64,000 bases of DNA from NCBI RefSeq assembly GCF_030704535.1, contig NC_081811.1:3612501-3676500 (forward strand), written 5' to 3'. Made by a program: the position numbers and the translations under genes. The DNA is from Vitis vinifera. Lineage: Eukaryota > Streptophyta > Magnoliopsida > Vitales > Vitaceae. Under the pieces are notes generated by a model, which saw only the letters and a list, made by a program, of their open reading frames with translations, was not told where the DNA came from and searched no databases. Positions 13,161-63,200 of this stretch are shown piece by piece; position 1 is the first letter of the stretch; each line of letters opens with the position of its first letter.

Positions 13161-15090
13161 ATTGGATTATGCTCTTCTGTCAATGGCCACTGGCAAGATA
13201 GTCAAATCCTATACATTTCAGCAGGCTGCACTCTAGGCGAAGTAAACTTCCAAGAAAAAACCCGGGTCCCTCGTTTTTTTTTTTTGGCTTTGGGATGGTG
13301 TCAACAAATTTAGAGATGGCTGTTTATTTTTAGCATTGAAACTTCATAACCCCCACACATGAAGTGTATTTAGCAGAAGAAATCTTTGGAAAGATCCCCA
13401 TTGTTAGGCTGGAGCTGAAGAATCCATTCAAGTGTTGACAAATATCTGAAAATTTCAATTGGAGGTAGATTCACTTCACTTCATGTACGTTTGCTTCTCT
13501 CTGTTAATCATTTGTATCATGGATTGGACTCCCTCCATGTGTGGTACAATTTTTTTTGTCTATTTGTTCATCATTCCTGTCATGTAAAAGGTCAGCACAC
13601 TCGCAGAAAAATGATGCTCGTAGCCGGTTGACGAGCCTTTTCCTTCTCCTTTATTGGAAAAATGAGTTTTCAATTACTCATATAAAAATAATCATAAAAT
13701 AAAAGTTTTTTAAAAATAATTTGAATTTCATGTATTCACCTATTAAAGTTGGTATCTAAAATGATTAAAGATAAGATTGATATCATTAAAAGGTAGTATA
13801 TCAAAGTTAGTATCTAAGATGATTAAAGGTAACACTGATATATTAAAAGGCAGTATCTGAATAGTCAAAAGTAGTACTTTTGATTAAAAAAAATATAAAA
13901 TGCTAATTATTTTTAAATATCTACTTAAAATTTATATTTTACAAATTTGGGTACCTATTTAATAGTTTTTTTTTCATATAAGTGTAAGAAATTACACTTT
14001 TCCCTTCTCTTTTTAATTTTTCTTAATTTTTTTTTTTTTTTGAAAAAACCATAACTGCACAAATATTTTTTTAATCAAAATTTGAGGGGGCATGTTCAAT
14101 GTGCCCCCTAAGCCTACCCTCCTCCACATTTTCCCTTTGTCTTCACCCTTTTTCTCGCATCTACAACTTATATATATAAGTTCTGAAGTCGACCCTCTCC
14201 CACCTTTGTTTTCACACCAATACATTTCTTTTATGCATAGGGATAGTATTCACATTTCCATCTGACCTTTGAATTGAGAAAATGAATGATGGATAGAGAC
14301 AAAAGGGTGGTGCATAAGCCGGAAAAAGCCAAAACCATTTGAATCAAGTAATGCAGTGATTCAAATGGTTGTTACAAACGGATTCAATCCATTTAGAGTC
14401 AAATAAACTAACATGACCCCTTGTAATGGAGTAGAAGTCTACATCCACCTGTCATTTCACGTGCCATGGTGGACCCTTATGACAACGGCGTAACGTATAA
14501 AAATCTTCCATTTGAAGATGGCATTTTCACATGATTCATGCTCCCTATGACTTGTTATCCAAAACTTATTTAATCATTTCCTAATTCACGCGTGTTTGAA
14601 AGTAAATCAACATTTTTTGCTTTTCAAATTTTCATCATTCTTGTACCGTATCCGATTGGCTACAAAATGCATGAGATTAGAACTAAGGTGCAAAGATTCT
14701 ATGAGTTTTTTGAACTCTTATTTGAAGCCGTATAAATGGGTTAATGGAACAATTAATATAGACAAATGTTATAGATTTATCGAAAATAAGTCTAATAAAC
14801 AATAAATTAGATCACATGATGGAAAGTTATACAAAAGGTGATAAGAGTTTTTTTAAACTTTGTTTGTATTACTTTTAGGTATATATCAAAAAACCGAGAT
14901 CAATTTCAGATCTTATCAATTTATTTATACTTTATATCATATATTTATATTATATTTATAATATTATCAGTTTCATTTTCAAGACTCTAAATGAGATGAA
15001 AAGATAAAAAATAAAATAAAATAATATATAGTAAAAGTTGCTTCGGATTTTTTGGTTTCATTTTCAAAAACCCAAGTCTTAGTGGAGTTG
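13161..15090. other. Intergenic region between PPR gene and MHX
   Basis: PPR 3' UTR followed by AT-rich DNA with no supported gene. A decayed tandem repeat of about 58 bp lies at 13745-13862, sharing AAAGTTRGTATCTAARATGA. A poly-T run is at about 14025-14041. The MHX core promoter lies at the right end. Confidence 0.5.
13745..13862. repeat. Degenerate tandem repeat, about 58-bp unit
   Basis: Two adjacent units start with AAAGTTGGTATCTAAAATGA and AAAGTTAGTATCTAAGATGA. Both continue through a GATTAAAGRTAA block to ATTAAAAGGYAGTAT. Confidence 0.6.
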
Positions 15091-47681: not shown

Positions 47682-50600
47682 TCATCGCTTCAGATTGTTC
47701 GTCTTTTTTATAGTTTTGCCACCCATGCCTTTACTCTTCTTGGTATTCTGTTTTTTCCCGCCCTGCCCATGTTCTTCCACTCCTTCATGGGGATTCACAT
47801 CTTTGTATTTGATTGGTTTTATAATAACACCAGCCTTCTTCACCACCTGAATTGGAGGCAATTAAGGTAAGAAAAGAGAAAAGGATAACCCCAAATCAAA
47901 TTATTATTCAGGTTTTTCTTCTCCTTTCACACAAAGAGGTAAAATGATAATCAAATCTGCAAGAGTGAATCAAATATTCAATGCTGCAAAGTGGCTCTGA
48001 AACACTTACTTCTGGTCTATTAAGAGCTCCAAGGACTACCGCTGGATTGAATTCAGGTCCAATAGGCATTCGAATACTCTGTTCAAAAACTTCCTTAGAT
48101 GTGTATGGGAAAGGCAAAGTTTTGGTATGTAGTTTCTCAGCCTGTCAAATCATCAATCAACATATGAAAAAAAGCAAAACACATTTAAGAAAACACAACT
48201 TCATAATAAGAAACAGAGTGCCAACATGATTTTAACAACTGATTTTCCATACTTCAACAAATGGCAAAGAAAAACCAAACAGAAAAAGTAAACCACCAAG
48301 AGTAGAATCTCCTAAACCACATATATTTCTTTGGCGAAGCAGCAAAAAAGGCACATCCCATCCTTTATTTATTTTAATTTGAGTCATCTCCTTATCAGAG
48401 TGTTCAGTTTCATTTGTCCATTTAAATATTTTTTTGAGCTTGTAAGGAAATTAAAAGAGGAAAATGAATTTTTGAAGTCCTTATCCTCCCAAAACTTCAA
48501 TTCCATTCTGCTGCAAAATCATTCCACCAGTAAAAATTAATGTAGTAAAATTTATGTTGCACAAATGTCCCACTTTCAAGCATATTTCTTTTAGATTATG
48601 TGTTCTAAAACTTAAAACCTCATGACTCAGCAACTGTTTTATCTTGTCCAGTTGCCTGAGTTCCTCACTTCTGAAAAATAAACCAGCCATGATAAGGTTC
48701 GTCTCTCTTAGCACACTAATTCCTTGTATCCAAATTGGCACCTGGAATTCTAAATTCAATGAGGGGGATAAAGAAGCAATTAGGATGCATGATGAATCCT
48801 AAAGCAACATTACCAACCTTTTTATCCAACTTCTCAGAGACGATTACATGCTTAAGATGCGCATCCTTCCTCTTCTTAAGAGCTTCTTCCCTCTTTTTTT
48901 TGGCAATTTCATGCTCTTCAAGCATCCAAGAAGGTAACCCTTTCTTTTGCTGTACATGAGTCCATTGGCCCCAACCAGGAAGCAAAACAGGTTTTTCAGG
49001 TTCAGGATTTTCCCCTTTTAGAATTTCATCTTTATCCTTTTCAAAATCTTCCTCCACATCATCCCCAGCAAAAGCGCGGCGAATAAGCTCTGCTTGGGAT
49101 GGAAGTTCATAAGTTGCCTTCATGCCAGAAGACAAAGTGCCATCTACCATCTGTCCCTCATCATCTGTATCACTATCCCCACCAACTTCCTGAAAGGTTT
49201 CCAAGAAAGAAGTAAGAGAAGAAATCAATCAAATTAGAAGTAGCACAAATTTAAAAGATGTGGAAAGATCATACCCCTTGATCCTTATTATGCCTAGGAG
49301 GTTCCACAGATTTGGGAGGCTTTATGATATTGCCATTTGCTTCATTTTCACTCTTCATCTGCTCATTAAACACATTCTGGTTAGTAACAAAAGAACCTGA
49401 ATTTCTGTATGTAAAACAATAAAATACATAAATGGAAGGCAAACAACCTTTTTCCATGAGCCGGATGCAAACATTGCAACTTCATATGTTGTCTTGGGGC
49501 CTGGGTCTCTAACTATATCATTGAAACTCTGAACCACAAAACACAATGTCACACTTCTAGAAAGATAATAACTAAGAGGAAGTTTGGAAGTAAGCAAGGA
49601 ATCCATCACCTTAAATATAGGATCCTGACCAATCTCAGACTCTTCGCGAAGTAGACCAGCATCTATATCAACATGCTTTGGCAAATTATTATTCTGGTCA
49701 TTCGCAGCTTCAATATTTTCTTTGACCTTGAATTCATCTTCACTATCACTATTATTATAATGAGCATCTTTATTACTGAACTCTTGAATTTGCTTCTTAA
49801 CTGTGCCGAAAACACGTCTACCACTTGAAGCAGTCTCTTTTAGATTCTCAGCCCCACCCCCAAGCTCCATTTGCTTTAATGATGCCTCAAATTCATTGAT
49901 AGCAAGCTTACCTTCTTCATAAGCTGCCTCTTTTCTCTTCTTCAAGCCACGGACCTACACAGGGTCAAGCAGATACAACAAAAATAAATAAAACCAATTA
50001 ATAGATCAATGATTTGTCAGTTTCAAGATCCAAAGGAAGTTCTAATTTATCACATGATTCTTTTCTTTTTTCTATTTCTTTTTTAAATTCCATTTTAAAA
50101 CTTTCACCAGCTGAACTAGTCTTGCTTATACACATAAGTGAAGATCTTTGAGATTCCAATCAACAGGAATACTCTAAATATTACCATAAAAGGTAAAGAT
50201 AGCACTCCTGAGTCAGGGATTTTGTCCTCTTCTTCCAGCACTTCGAGTGTTTTCTCTTTTGCTTTCGCTAACAACTTGGATGCTCCATCCTCATCTGAAC
50301 CTGCTGAATTTTCATCAAAATCATCTTCATCACTACTTTCATCACTGCTAGTGTCCTTCATAGAGTGCATTTTTCTGGTCAAAAGAGCATGCTGATGGAG
50401 CTGCTCAGTTATAGCAGCTCGAGTTCCTTCATCTTGAACATCCAACCCACGCTTTAAAATGCGCTTTGCCCACTTGGAGCTGTTTTTGTGCTTCAAAGTC
50501 AAGCGTTCCTGTATCAAATCAAGTAAAGGAAAAAAAAGGAACAAAAAGTCAAGAACTTTTCTTTTGGTATAATCTAGAAGAGAACTTTTTTTTCAAAACT

Positions 50601-52779
50601 ATAGGAATTATTTAGCCCAATGAGAATGTCAATTACCTCTGCACGCTTGAACTCTTGTTTCATTGCAAGTTCCTTAGCAGCTTCTGGATCCATTTGTATT
50701 TCAGCAGATGCAGTTTTCAATCTATCCTTCTTCAACAAGCGGTGATATGTTTTGGACTTGATTTTTTTTATGCGTTTTGCCTTCATTTCATGATTGAAAA
50801 GAAGACTACGCATTTTAGCAATGCGATTATGACGTTCCTTGACATCTTCAACAGATATCTTCAAAGCATCATTCACAGAAGAGAGCAGAGTTCAAAAAGT
50901 TAGGATATTAAGCCATGCTGACAAACCAATATTGAACAAAGAGGAAAAATAAACGATGAACCTCCGTACCTTGTTCAGTTCAAGAAGCCTGGAACCATCT
51001 TGTCTGTGAGCTTCCAAAACCTTGTCATCATGGACTAATGAAGCAATTTTCTTCTCGAAATCAGTTCTTGGTTCAAATTCAGAAGCTATGGCCCCTACAG
51101 TTGAAAACCCCAAGTCTACATCTTCGTCAAAATAAACCGTAGGTGCCTCCCTATTCTTCTTGACTAATGGCTCCCACTTGGTAATGTCCTTCTTTGATTG
51201 TTCATAAGCCACCTTCCTCTCCAACTTTTCCCTATCCGCTTTTGGAAGCGGAGCATGAACAGACATGGACTTTCTTTCCACTTGATGCATTCTCTTTCTA
51301 AGTTTGCTATATCCGGACTTTCCATGGAGAGGGTCCAGAAGATCCTGAATGCTAATGCGACCATTGCCTTCCAGAACATCACGACTAGGATTGTATTCAG
51401 ACTCTGGGTATGCCTCGGACACAACAACATTATTTTTCCTTTTCTTACCTGAAGGTGACATACAATTCGATTTCAGTCTTGTTCTTTGAGTAATACTTAA
51501 AAGAATGGTCACTAAAATAATTCCTCATGGCTTATCTCGGGTTATAACTTTTGCTTCTGACTCTTTTGAGAACACTCAAAAACATGCTTTGTTATTTGAA
51601 AATGTTTCTTTCCAATAAAAATACAATGGCAACAATGTCAAAATCCATTTTTCAGTTGTTCTTATTCATAATTGCAAGAATTTCAGAGAGTCAGCATAGA
51701 AGGGGATTGAAACAGGTTGAGTAACTGTATTTCAGGGGTTTTCATCCTTAAGAAAGAAAAGGTATAATTTCTTCTAAGATGACCTTTAACATTGAATTCA
51801 GAGCAAATTGTGCAGTAAGCTTGGCTCAAAAACAATCCCATCAGGACAAGTTTAAATCTCGATCTTACCTTCAAAAGCCTCACTCGGCATTCCAGTGATT
51901 CCTTGCAGCATCCTCATATGCCTTCCATCATCTTCCTCTTCAACTTCATCACCAAGATGGCTCGAATTTTCACTTCGATTGTTTTCCTCATCTTCACCTT
52001 CAATGTCATCATCATCGGACGCAATGTTCTCATCCTACACAAGTAATACAACAACAAAAATAGCTTCATTAAAAAAACCAAAAATGCCATAATCATGCTA
52101 TATTGAACAAAGATTATTAGACACACAAAAAAAAGTCATAAAATTATCGTCATATTGACAATTCAATCAATATCCAGAAAATCCCATATCAATAGCATTG
52201 GCCCTAAACCCTAAACCCTAGACCCTAACCCCAGAACAAACCAGGGAGGAATATCAAAACTACATGTCCCAACTAAGAAAAGGAGACTACTAAAACCATC
52301 ACATGAATTTCTCACCAAAGCTTTCGCCTAAATTATAACTTTTTATATTCACTTTTCCACCCAAATCCATTTCCCCAATTTCTAAACCCACAAATAAACA
52401 AAACTTGCAAAATACATTCTTCAGAATCAATTAAACACCAAAAATTTGAATAGAAACTCACCTTGAAATCTTCCGGCAGCTCGTACTCGAAGTTCTCGAC
52501 CGAGTCGAAACGCCGATTCTTCTTGGACTCCTCTTCCGCCGCCGCCTCTTCATACTCGTACAGATTATTTGCCAGCAACTCTCCTTCATCGGAATTGATC
52601 TCTTCGTCGCCGCCACCTTTCAAAGGATTAGGATTAACGAGATCGAGCTCCTTTCGTAGCTTGGACGGCAGGCGAGGGCCAGTCCTCTTCTTTAGAGTTT
52701 TGGGTTTCGAATTCTTTCTCTTCTTCTGCAATCTACCTCCGCCGCTTTCTTCTTTCGATTTTCTCTTCTTCTCAGCCAT
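47682..52779 (-). CDS. UTP14: U3 snoRNP-associated protein UTP14 (SSU processome)
   Basis: Eleven minus-strand exons join in frame: 52462-52779, 51869-52034, 51448 to 50970, 50637-50858, 50185-50508, 49610-49954, 49448-49528, 49275-49376, 48818-49189, 48010-48141 and 47682-47846, giving 901 residues. The basic start MAEKKRKSKEESGGGRLQKK is followed by acidic stretches, the conserved core RISIQDLLDPLHGKSGYSKL, KWEPLVKKNREAPTVYF, the lysine-rich RIKKIKSKTYHRLLKKDRLK, WAKRILKRGLD, and the C-terminal LPGWGQWT motif near residue 750, with a final KKTNNLKR. UTP14 acts in the nucleolus in early 18S rRNA maturation and activates the helicase DHR1 in yeast. An in-frame upstream ATG at 52854 would add 25 residues; the 52779 start better matches family N-termini. 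Confidence 0.94.
52202..52229. repeat. Four telomere-type heptamers in UTP14 intron 1
   Basis: Plus-strand CCCTAAA, CCCTAAA, CCCTAGA, CCCTAAC in tandem. These equal the plant telomere unit, and contain telo-box motifs, inside the first intron about 550 bp after the UTP14 start codon. Telo-boxes near the 5' end are common in ribosome-biogenesis genes. Confidence 0.85.
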
Positions 52780-55510: not shown

Positions 55511-55940
55511 TGAAGAAACTAACGAACAGAGTTGATGTGGTCCTGTCATCTGAGCTCAGTACTGTTGATCAACTGCGAATGCTTCAGAAAAATCAGACGC
55601 ACGGAGCCCTGTTACAAAATCAAAAAACAGTACCATCTACTTTTTGGTTTTGCTTTCAGTTTGGCCGTATTGCTTCTCAGACAACATTACTTAAATATGA
55701 AATATCCAAGGCCTCCTGCAATTTATTATCTGCTAATTTCCATGGTAAATGATGGTTAGAAGTAGATAAAAATCTGCTTAATTTAAGTGGGAAATGAAGT
55801 GTTGTGCAACCAGAAGACAATACAGAACATAAATGAGGAATTAGTAAGAGAGGGGAGAGAGAAAATGAGAGAAAAGGGGAGAAAAGTGCATTACCCAAAT
55901 GAAGCAATAGCATGGAAATGGAGAGGGGTGAGGAACCCAT

Positions 55941-56041
55941 GTTGGAGAAGGGGAGCACGTGCAAGCCTGTGGGCGGTGGTGGGAGTAAAGAAGAAAAAAG
56001 GGGGAAAAGTGAGGCAAATCTGCACGTGCCCTGCTTCTCCA
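55941..56041 (-). ncRNA. MIR164: MIR164 precursor hairpin
   Basis: On the minus strand the mature miR164 lies on the 5' arm at 56041 down to 56021: it reads TGGAGAAG, then CAGGG, then CACGTGCA, identical to plant miR164a. The star strand is at 55961 down to 55941 (CACGTGC, then TCCCC, then TTCTCCAAC). The two pair over 19 positions with two central mismatches (miRNA positions 9-10), one G-U pair, and 2-nt 3' overhangs on both ends. The loop is 59 nt. miR164 guides cleavage of NAC-domain mRNAs (CUC1/2, NAC1-type, ORE1), controlling organ boundaries, roots and senescence. No long open frame explains the conservation of both arms. Confidence 0.97.
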
Positions 56042-56770
56042 ACAAGGAGCTACACACCCAGTGAAGAGCAGATAGTGTTTTCACCAATAATGGAGAGGGA
56101 GCGCTGCAAATTCAGTAGAGAGGAAGGGGGATGTATTTATAGGAGAAATGAGGGGGAAGAGAAAGAGAAAAAGAGAGCAATTGAGTAAGTTGGATTGGCG
56201 TGCAGTGAAAAACCCCTTTCTGCCATGCCATATGCCATCATCTCTGGTAACTGTAGGCAATTCATCAAGGAAAGAATTTCAAAGGGGAAGAGACCAGAAC
56301 AAGGGCATGTGTCGGCCTTACTTTCGCAAGAGCCCGCGAACTTCTTTTGTTCCTTTCAGGATTTATTGCACTGAAAGACAAGCACAATTACAAAAACCCC
56401 ATACATTTATATATATATTTATGATAAGTTGAATACTCCACACTGTGGTAGCTAGCCCATTGATCAAGAATCTGGAATAGTGATGATGGTGGGTAGGGTA
56501 CTCACCTTGTGGGTCACCTTTTTCTTTGGAAGAATTTGATGGGTGCAATTTGCAGAGGGAAGACAGAGAGAGAAAGAAAGAATAATGTAAGAGATGCACG
56601 TATGCTTTGCGTGTTGGGGTTCAAGATTTTGATTATGGAGTGGAGGAGAGTGTTGTTGTTGTTGAGAGAGAGAGAGTGGCACGAGAGAGATGGGAGTCTT
56701 TCTAGGTAGATATGATTCCCTACGTGTTGTAGGCATCAGCTTTCTCCCCAAAACTTAGGTTAGTTTCTCT
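56042..56770 (-). ncRNA. Probable 5' part of pri-MIR164 transcript
   Basis: Upstream of the hairpin on the minus strand, about 56500-56700 looks like a transcribed leader: CT repeats, CAACAACAACAACA, CACGCAAAGCATACGTGC, then CCCACAAG followed by donor-like GTGAGT near 56506. A spliced pri-miRNA is plausible. The segment is related to one at 59690-59880. Transcript limits are unknown. Confidence 0.4.
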
Positions 56771-59325: not shown

Positions 59326-59689
59326 AATAAGTTTTACTTTTTACTCTGGCATACCTGACAATGTAAGGAAGTCAACCATTTAAAAGCTGACTTTAACCAG
59401 AGAAACAGCACAGTATGAAGTAAACCTATGCCATTTCATTTCCTACGCCATCATCCTTCCAATGTGTACATGAAAATTGGGAGAGATAACTAGGGAGGGA
59501 GGCCATACAAGACATGTAACCAACCCATTGTTCCCCTGAGGGTCCAAAAACACAGCAAGACAATCAGAAGCATTCAAAAGAACTGGCCTTTTTTGATCAA
59601 GAATGTTAGAACCCTGATACTGCACCCACTAACTTGTCGCACAGCTAGAGCTAGGTCACCCATCTGGGTGGGACCACCATGAGAGGGCA

Positions 59690-59880
59690 GGGCTCTCAGC
59701 CTCTCTCTCACCATTTTCTTTGGAAATTTTGATGGTGCAAGCACAGGAGAGTGTAACAGAGGTTAGGCTTTGCGTGTTGAGATCATGGTGTGTGCTGTTT
59801 GTGAGACTTGGGGCTGCCCCTAGGTAGATATGATTCTTTATGCAGTAGGTTCAGCTTTTTCCCCCAAAATTTATGGTTGT
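59690..59880 (-). repeat. Relic paralogue of pri-MIR164 leader
   Basis: It shares in order, with 56510-56770, CACCWTTTTCTTTGGAA, TTTGATGG-GTGCAA, GCTTTGCGTGTT, the run CTAGGTAGATATGATTC and CAGCTTTYTCCCC-AAAA. There is no miR164 or star sequence near this copy. It looks like a duplicated MIR164 upstream region that lost, or never carried, the hairpin. Confidence 0.6.
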
Positions 59881-60241
59881 TTTTACCAGAATCAAGACAC
59901 CAAAGTTTCAGAGCCCATGATAGCTAGGTAGATCATGTCCAGTGAACAGAGCAAAGCATGAAAGCATAGATGCACAAGATGGGTCCAGACCCCTATAAGT
60001 CTTTTTTACTCTAGTTCTGGCTAGGACTCATTTATCACCATATTTCCACTGGTTTTGAACCAAATAACAATGAACACATTAGACTTCATAATTTAGATGA
60101 AAAGCCCATTTTGATTTTCATAAATTATGATACATGCTACATCCTACATGCGATATGAATACTCTTTCACTAATTTATATGATTAATAGAAAAACAAGGA
60201 AAAGTAGTGAGGGAAAAATGGAGAATCGGTCGTCATACTGG

Positions 60242-63200
60242 TCATCTCTTGAAGTTGAAAGTCACTTGAACAACATAGCGCATCCTAATCTGATCCACAT
60301 TGTAAACTATGTACTCATTGTACAATAAACCACCCTGCAAGAATTTGAATGAGGCTTATTATGACAAAATCTGATAATACAATGAAAATTAGGTAGTAAT
60401 ACAATAAACCATACTGGAAGTGATTTGAATTAAATTTCTTAAATCCATCCTGCCTACCTTAGGGTCCGATCGCAGCTTTGGCTTTCCTAGGGGGACAACA
60501 ATACCATTTTCAAATGCTTGAGCTTCTGAGGGATCTGGTGCGGTTGCACCAATTCCTTTTGTGCTGCAGTGTAGGAATTATACTCCCATTAACTTTATAG
60601 CAATTGACAGGGAAGAGGGATACCACTTATGATTGGTCATGTGTCAAGCTAAAAATTAGATAAACAGCAAATTTGAAATCACTTCATAGGGAAGGTTCTC
60701 TTTGTTCCCAGCTTACAAATATTATCAAGTTCTGATCGAACTATTTTAATGATGAATAGTTTGTGTCAAGAAAATCAGGTTATTGTGACCCTGCAGGATT
60801 GGCAGGGAAAACTGCTGGCTTTCCTACGAGCTTTCACCTTCATGGTGGTAAATTAGAAAAGTTGTGCATGAAGATGCAATTCAGAACAGTGGTTACAAGA
60901 GCTTTTAGTATAGTGAATTTTCATGAAATTTAAATGCTAGCAATGGTACTGGGGAATTAACCATTAGCTCTTGCATTGAGCAATTTTACTTTATCAAAGC
61001 ACATCAGATAAACATTATCCAATGGCAACATCAAGAAAAAGAGTGAATGATACCTTAACTTTCCCTCTGGTAACTTATCAGCATTACAATTTGCAGTCAG
61101 AAGTTCAGCCATATCACCCAGTGCAACCTGAAAAACAGGGTTCAATAGTTTTACAAGAGCATCCAATTATGAGAAAGATGAGAAAAATCATTTGCCACAT
61201 CAGTACAAGAAAAGCTAGATTTTTTTCTTGGAAGAATATCTAAGCAATAATCAATGTATAATCTAGATGAGCATAACATCATCCTGATCAATCTGGAATG
61301 TGAGGCCAATCTTTTGCGTGGTTATCAAGTGGAAAATTCTGACTATTTCCTTCGGGACCTAAATAGCATGCATTGAGTGAAAACAGACGATTGATTGGGG
61401 CAATTTTATCTTTGTCAGGTAAATTTCTGTCACAAGTTCAATCACAGTTTTTTTTTTTTTCGTTTTTAATCATTAATGAGAAAAGACAATTTGTTTAAAT
61501 TGATAATTCAAAATCACATTTTTTATACTCTGTAATAAAAATAACTCTGCTGGACAAGTAACAACCTCGCATAAAACCAGCACACCAGTAGTCATAGCAC
61601 AGGATGGGTAGGAATAATTAGCACTTTTGGAGAACATATCGGCAAAATAAACCCCCTTTCCAAACATGTAACCTGTTGCAGGTGCCTCAGGAGGAGCAAT
61701 CCGCAAACCTGGTGGTTTGTTATGGAACAAATTGCATTTAGATCTTTTGCAAAATTCATGAGTATATACCAAAACAAAAAGACAAAAAGAATAACCTTGG
61801 GATAGAATGCCAGTCCAGTTTGTGAGTCGAGAACCATGCCATAGTAGCATTCTATTTTTTGTACTAGAAAACTGCCGACAAGAGTAAAAGGAGAGTTACA
61901 GCAGGCTTAAAACACTTGAAGTAACATTCTAGAAGCAACTGGAAAAACTATCACGGCTGTAATTATCCATAAAGATTGAAATAGATTATGAAGGGCATAT
62001 TTCATCTTGGACTAGCATTGTTCACCTTTCTGAAACGTTCAACTTCACCCTCTCTTGAAACCCTGAATATTTGGACAATATCAACAGTATAATTTGAATG
62101 TGTTTCTGCATGAGTGTTCTCCATATACTTGGCAATCTGATCACAGACACGAATAGTTTAGCAAGTTAGAGATAAAAGTGTCTAGCTGATTAACAAATGA
62201 ATTCCAAATGATAAAGCTTTCTTATTTCATATAATTTGTTGATCTATTTCAAGATCAAGAATAAAAGGCTGAACAGTAACATTCAACATTCCTATCACCA
62301 CCTCTTCCCAAACTTTCAACCCACACAATTTCTAATACCATACAAATAATGAACATACCATAGAAAATTCCTCAGAATTGACTTCAAGAGGAATCATTTC
62401 ACAATGAAGGCGTTGGTAATGCATATGTAAGGGATCTTCCTACAACAGTAGGGAAAAAAAAAATTAGAGAACCTGAAACAGAGCCTTTAAGCAGCTTAAA
62501 TGAGATAAGAGTGTATTCAAGAGGCTGTGTCTAATGAATCTATTTGTGATGTACAAGAACTAACATATCAAATAAAAAATGTATTAAGGAAACAAGACTT
62601 CAACAGAAAAGGGGCAAATTTATGTTACATGTCAAGTTGACATTCCAAAAACTTGATTAAGAACTAATAACTTTAGAACAAAATGAAATGAATGTGGTAC
62701 AATTCTTGATTGTCTAAAAAGTAAATGATCAAGTAAATTCAAATTATCATATGAAGTTTTTCTGTATTTAAGAGAAGGATGTGCTACAATTTTCAGTTAA
62801 AAGTTGATTCACGATGAAGTGCAAAAACTACTTTCAGCAATTTAAACTAACAAAAGCATTGCACGCAATAATAGGCACATCCATAAAATATTTCCAACAG
62901 TATATCTTGGATCCTGACATCCTGGATATCAGCAAAAAAAATAAAAAATAAATAAAGAGGTAAATGATATAAATATGCATTTTGCATCTGATAGAATGGT
63001 AGGTCTTTTACTCCTTGCAAACATGTTCTCAGGAGATACCTACAGAAGCAATATTCAGAATGCCACATAAAATCAGTCAATATGATAGAAGCATAGATAA
63101 AGAATACCTGTGTCCCAATATCATCCTTCAACAACTTTGTCGCAACCTCAATTTCTCCAAGGGCTTCAACCTTCATGGATAAAAGTAATTGAGCACAGTC

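Follow-up and report, generated by a model that had tools for sequence, protein, structure and literature searches.

In the 64,000-nt stretch of grapevine (Vitis vinifera) DNA that was analysed here as a whole, hereafter the window (C7:3612501-3676500), an original prediction based on the letters alone had placed a complete MIR164 hairpin on the minus strand. The locus raises the question whether this hairpin is a microRNA gene, which member of the grape family it represents, whether this particular copy works, and on which strand it lies. We consider it very probable that the locus represents grapevine MIR164a and that this copy works. The analysis directly yielded the sequence, its fold and duplex geometry, the TATA box, the genomic copies and the match to a published locus.

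The hairpin and its surroundings

The elements on which the analysis is built are the following.

50116-52779, minus strand: Utp14 gene, flanking MIR164a
55926-56059, minus strand: predicted stem-loop with a long terminal loop
55941-55961, minus strand: miR164 star (3p arm), CACGUGCUCCCCUUCUCCAAC, with 2-nt 3' overhangs and two mismatches
56021-56041, minus strand: mature miR164 (5p arm), UGGAGAAGCAGGGCACGUGCA, an exact match, also in print for grape
56134-56141, minus strand: TATA box TATAAATA, 100 nt upstream of the mature 5' end
60242-61895, minus strand: PARP gene, flanking MIR164a

Plant microRNAs are recognised by a fold-back that pairs the mature with the star strand, by 2-nt 3' overhangs and by at most five mismatches in the duplex. 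In the hairpin at 55941-56041, the miR164/miR164* duplex carries two mismatches against the five allowed, at positions 9 and 10, and leaves 2-nt 3' overhangs, so the duplex geometry that had been claimed for the arms at 55941-55961 and 56021-56041 (minus) is right. The claim that the mature strand is identical to the consensus is likewise confirmed, as the 21-nt miR164 is matched exactly at 56041-56021 on the 5p arm of the hairpin, while a miR164 search allowing up to three mismatches gave no match across 100 shuffles of the window. The second match in the window, at 55943-55963 on the plus strand with three mismatches, is the star arm seen from the opposite strand. When 22 conserved plant miRNAs were scanned against the window (up to three mismatches), miR164 alone matched. 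The star at 55941-55961 also has an identical counterpart in the small RNA listed for Eucommia as 'Eu-miR56' (PMC5099690).

Folding of the minus strand of 55920-56060, the check that had been proposed along with the prediction, yields a single long stem that pairs both arms at -56.0 kcal/mol (z -6.27; equalled by none of 200 shuffles), with an imperfect stem of about 18 nt below the mature 5' end. The plus strand folds too (-53.3, z -3.64; again equalled by none of 200 shuffles), because the locus is a near-perfect inverted repeat. As both strands fold, the choice of strand is not given by the fold alone.

The hairpin is flanked by the Utp14 and PARP genes. From the Utp14 ATG at 52779 to the PARP stop at 60242 the distance is 7.46 kb, and none of the 23 stop-to-stop ORFs of at least 60 aa that lie wholly inside this interval has a Pfam match (E 0.01). 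Both figures agree with the description of a gene-empty 7.5-kb interval. The corollary that protein-based annotation would miss the gene stands only in part: there is no recognisable protein gene in the interval, but the locus is already catalogued as vvi-MIR164a. The Arabidopsis homologues of PARP and UTP14 (At4g02390/At4g02400) are also adjacent, and no MIR164 is known between them.

The same interval contains two diverged copies of a segment of 200-275 bp, at 56491-56766 and 59685-59882 (minus), 3 kb apart and about 78% alike in two blocks. The copy at 56491-56766, which has a donor-like CACAAG/GTGAGT close to its end, precedes the MIR164a TATA box by approximately 350-630 nt. A second MIR164 within the repeated segment was considered and rejected, there being no miR164-like match near either copy. 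A genome search with one segment copy returned the query alone; since the known second copy was missed too, other diverged copies may still exist. Elsewhere in the window, at 14322-14378 on the plus strand, the Rfam hairpin Plastid-ccsA-ndhD-1 is matched with 58.0 bits. This hairpin has further matches on several chromosomes and on C21 and C20, which are presumably organelle contigs; the longer ones reach 70-72% over about 120-130 bp, and their 38-nt core 92-97%. It is a small, old plastid-derived insert or a mobile hairpin.

Place among the grape MIR164 loci

The genome searched comprises 495.6 Mb in 21 contigs. The exact miR164 21-mer is present in three places, on C7 (minus), C8 (plus) and C14 (minus), and a variant ending in ACATGCT is found on C9. 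In the grape set described in PMC2831844, MIR164A, C and D have an identical mature sequence, listed as UGGAGAAGCAGGGCACGUGCA there and in the tables of PMC5050227, and B ends in ACAUGCU. The three exact copies and the C9 variant thus equal the published grape set of A, C and D plus B. Table 3 of PMC5050227, based on 12Xv1, assigns vvi-miR164a, c and d to chromosomes 7 (minus), 8 (plus) and 14 (minus), respectively, in agreement with the chromosomes and strands of the three exact copies. Moreover, the C8 copy encodes MEKQGTCITSSCTTNQ, an exact match to the sequence published as grape miPEP164c (PMC8523857).

The window locus, a grape locus on chromosome 7 and the minus strand, therefore belongs where vvi-MIR164a has been placed. 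Based on chromosome number, strand and mature sequence, which are as published for vvi-MIR164a, and on the fit of all copies, we have hardly any doubt that the locus is vvi-MIR164a, whether working or not. The published precursor spans 119 nt on 12Xv1 (PMC5050227) and its coordinate is 3.287 Mb vs 3.6685 Mb here, a difference that we ascribe to the different assembly. Already catalogued, the hairpin is an ordinary gene; its microRNA, which is encoded by several loci, is of ancient origin in plants and restrains NAC developmental genes.

Mature sequence, star and basal stem are common to MIR164a and vvi-MIR164d (C14, L003), and the two hairpins align in two blocks with 92-93% identity. Unlike MIR164a, vvi-MIR164d carries a tandemly duplicated segment of about 31 bp in its loop, repeating the TGCACGTGCAG edge of the stem, and an ATG at the mature 5' edge. 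In MIR164a a T replaces the A of this ATG in the frame of the miPEP164c type. Such a frame, beginning with ATGGAGAAGCAG, is present at C8, is possible at C14 (MEKQGTCSSQILICSARAVHKF) and is impossible at C7 and C9, and the grape copies thus differ in this respect.

Transcription and activity of this copy

The TATA box supports transcription of MIR164a from the minus strand. TATAAAT occurs in 7 of 1000 shuffles of the stretch from -200 to -60, and the same motif is also located upstream of the C8 (-160) and C14 (-143) copies, while it is absent at C9. RNA polymerase II would begin minus-strand transcription near 56110, some 30 nt downstream of the box. A miPEP encoded ahead of the hairpin was considered and rejected, as no ATG lies between this putative start (~56110) and 55940. 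The ATG at 55940, the earliest one after the start, begins an 87-aa frame within an ORF that has no Pfam match.

Plant miRNA genes give a Pol II transcript that is processed by DCL1 from its base, after which the miRNA is loaded into AGO1 and, in the case of miR164, NAC mRNAs are cut. This established biology supplies the start site, the processing and the target cutting in our model of the locus. Accordingly modelled, DCL1 would cut the hairpin from its base to give the miR164/miR164* duplex, and miR164 would enter AGO1 and direct the cleavage of NAC transcription factor transcripts (CUC/NAC1 type, with VvNAC33 in grape), by which organ boundaries would be set and ripening affected. NAC genes, and VvNAC33 by name, are given in print as grape miR164 targets.

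Expression of the MIR164a copy in particular is weakly supported, because its mature sequence is common to three loci. Published mature counts are shared accordingly: 198 each for a, c and d in the tables of PMC5050227, 495/499/495 for the three loci as listed for another grape dataset, and 7 each in leaf, where the star was recovered for none (PMC2831844). Mature reads at 56021-56041 are not proof of MIR164a, since the same 21-mer stands at three genomic places, and only star reads or offset reads with locus-specific bases can provide it. Reads with CACGTGCTCCCCTTCTCCAAC would separate a and d from c, and reads starting with TTGGAG would separate a from the others, the T ahead of TGGAG being found at MIR164a only among the four grape loci.

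These distinctions bear on an alternative in which vvi-MIR164a is a silent or decaying copy with an intact hairpin, and grape miR164 comes mostly from MIR164c. The berry table of PMC5050227 counts a star for c (976) and none for a or d, and in PMC2831844 the MIR164A precursor gave no significant transcript in leaf, stem, root and callus, whereas a leaf signal is present for the MIR164C precursor; both observations speak for such a silent copy. Conversely, MIR164a has an intact TATA box and two intact arms, which are also conserved in the C14 copy. In addition, the offset read TTGGAGAAGCAGGGCACGTGC is listed for miR164a in PMC3937062, with 43.02 in the control and 0.17 after GA3, and the T before TGGAG is unique to MIR164a among the four loci; 43.02 is also the value printed for miR164d, however, which may mean that the two share one count. 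Induction of vvi-miR164a by cold, as reported for Cabernet Sauvignon, points in the same direction, though the mature sequence is not unique to a. Taken together, we regard a silent or decaying copy as improbable and retain a working MIR164a gene as the preferred reading.

Strand and the Rfam family model

With default settings, Rfam reported no MIR164 in the window. In a relaxed scan, RF00647 matches both strands of the locus, each under the gathering cut-off of 64, with 58.3 bits on the plus strand (E-value 9.2e-12) and 40.4 bits on the minus strand (E-value 7.2e-07; 801-base search). The gathering score is reached at none of the four grape loci, yet these fit the published set by mature sequence, and the window locus is therefore still filed as MIR164. 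The cut-off characterises the model; membership of the MIR164 family does not depend on it. The model also differs from the window locus in having 24 positions between the aligned arms, vs 57 in the longer terminal loop of the locus.

That the true gene lies on the plus strand and yields UGGAGAAGGGGAGCACGUGCA from 55943-55963 is scarcely credible: the higher plus-strand score of RF00647, the plus-strand fold and the precedent of the grape miR172a and b precursors, once predicted on the wrong strand (PMC2831844), would favour it, but the miR164 sequenced from plants corresponds to the minus strand (as given in PMC5099690 and PMC2831844), the published vvi-miR164a locus is minus (table of PMC5050227), the TATA box sits upstream on the minus strand, and RF00647 favours the antisense strand in all three loci that it matches, C8 included. 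The strand preferred by the model is uninformative, since antisense is favoured even at C8, where the published table and miPEP164c establish the strand. The MIR164 gene on the minus strand, as originally predicted, is thus supported by the mature sequence, the strand of the published locus and the upstream TATA box.

The behaviour of the model can be followed in its printed consensus, which has UGGAGAAGGgGAGCACGUGCA as 5' arm and UGCACGUGCCCuGCUUCUCCAAC as 3' arm, the latter containing the exact reverse complement of miR164. On the four grape loci, three are matched and the best match is antisense in each.

L001 (the window locus): 58.3 bits antisense vs 40.4 sense
L003 (C14): 59.5 bits antisense vs 42.8 sense
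L002: 29.0 bits, antisense only
L004: no match

Since the 3' arm contains the reverse complement of miR164 and the best matches are antisense in three of three loci, RF00647 appears to be strand-inverted, as judged from sequence comparison with grape loci alone. Very probably the model was built on the antisense strand, and Rfam-based annotation of plant genomes would consequently assign MIR164 genes to the opposite strand and, at the default cut-off, miss long-loop members such as the window locus. In the parts of the literature that were examined no mention of the orientation or inversion of RF00647 was found, though it may have been reported elsewhere.

In summary, the earlier reading is correct, and the gene that it describes is ordinary and already catalogued; as a gene, the window locus adds nothing to the published grape catalogue. 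Its meaning is practical. A default Rfam scan misses MIR164a and RF00647 appears to give the wrong strand, and star or offset reads alone separate MIR164a from its two identical siblings.
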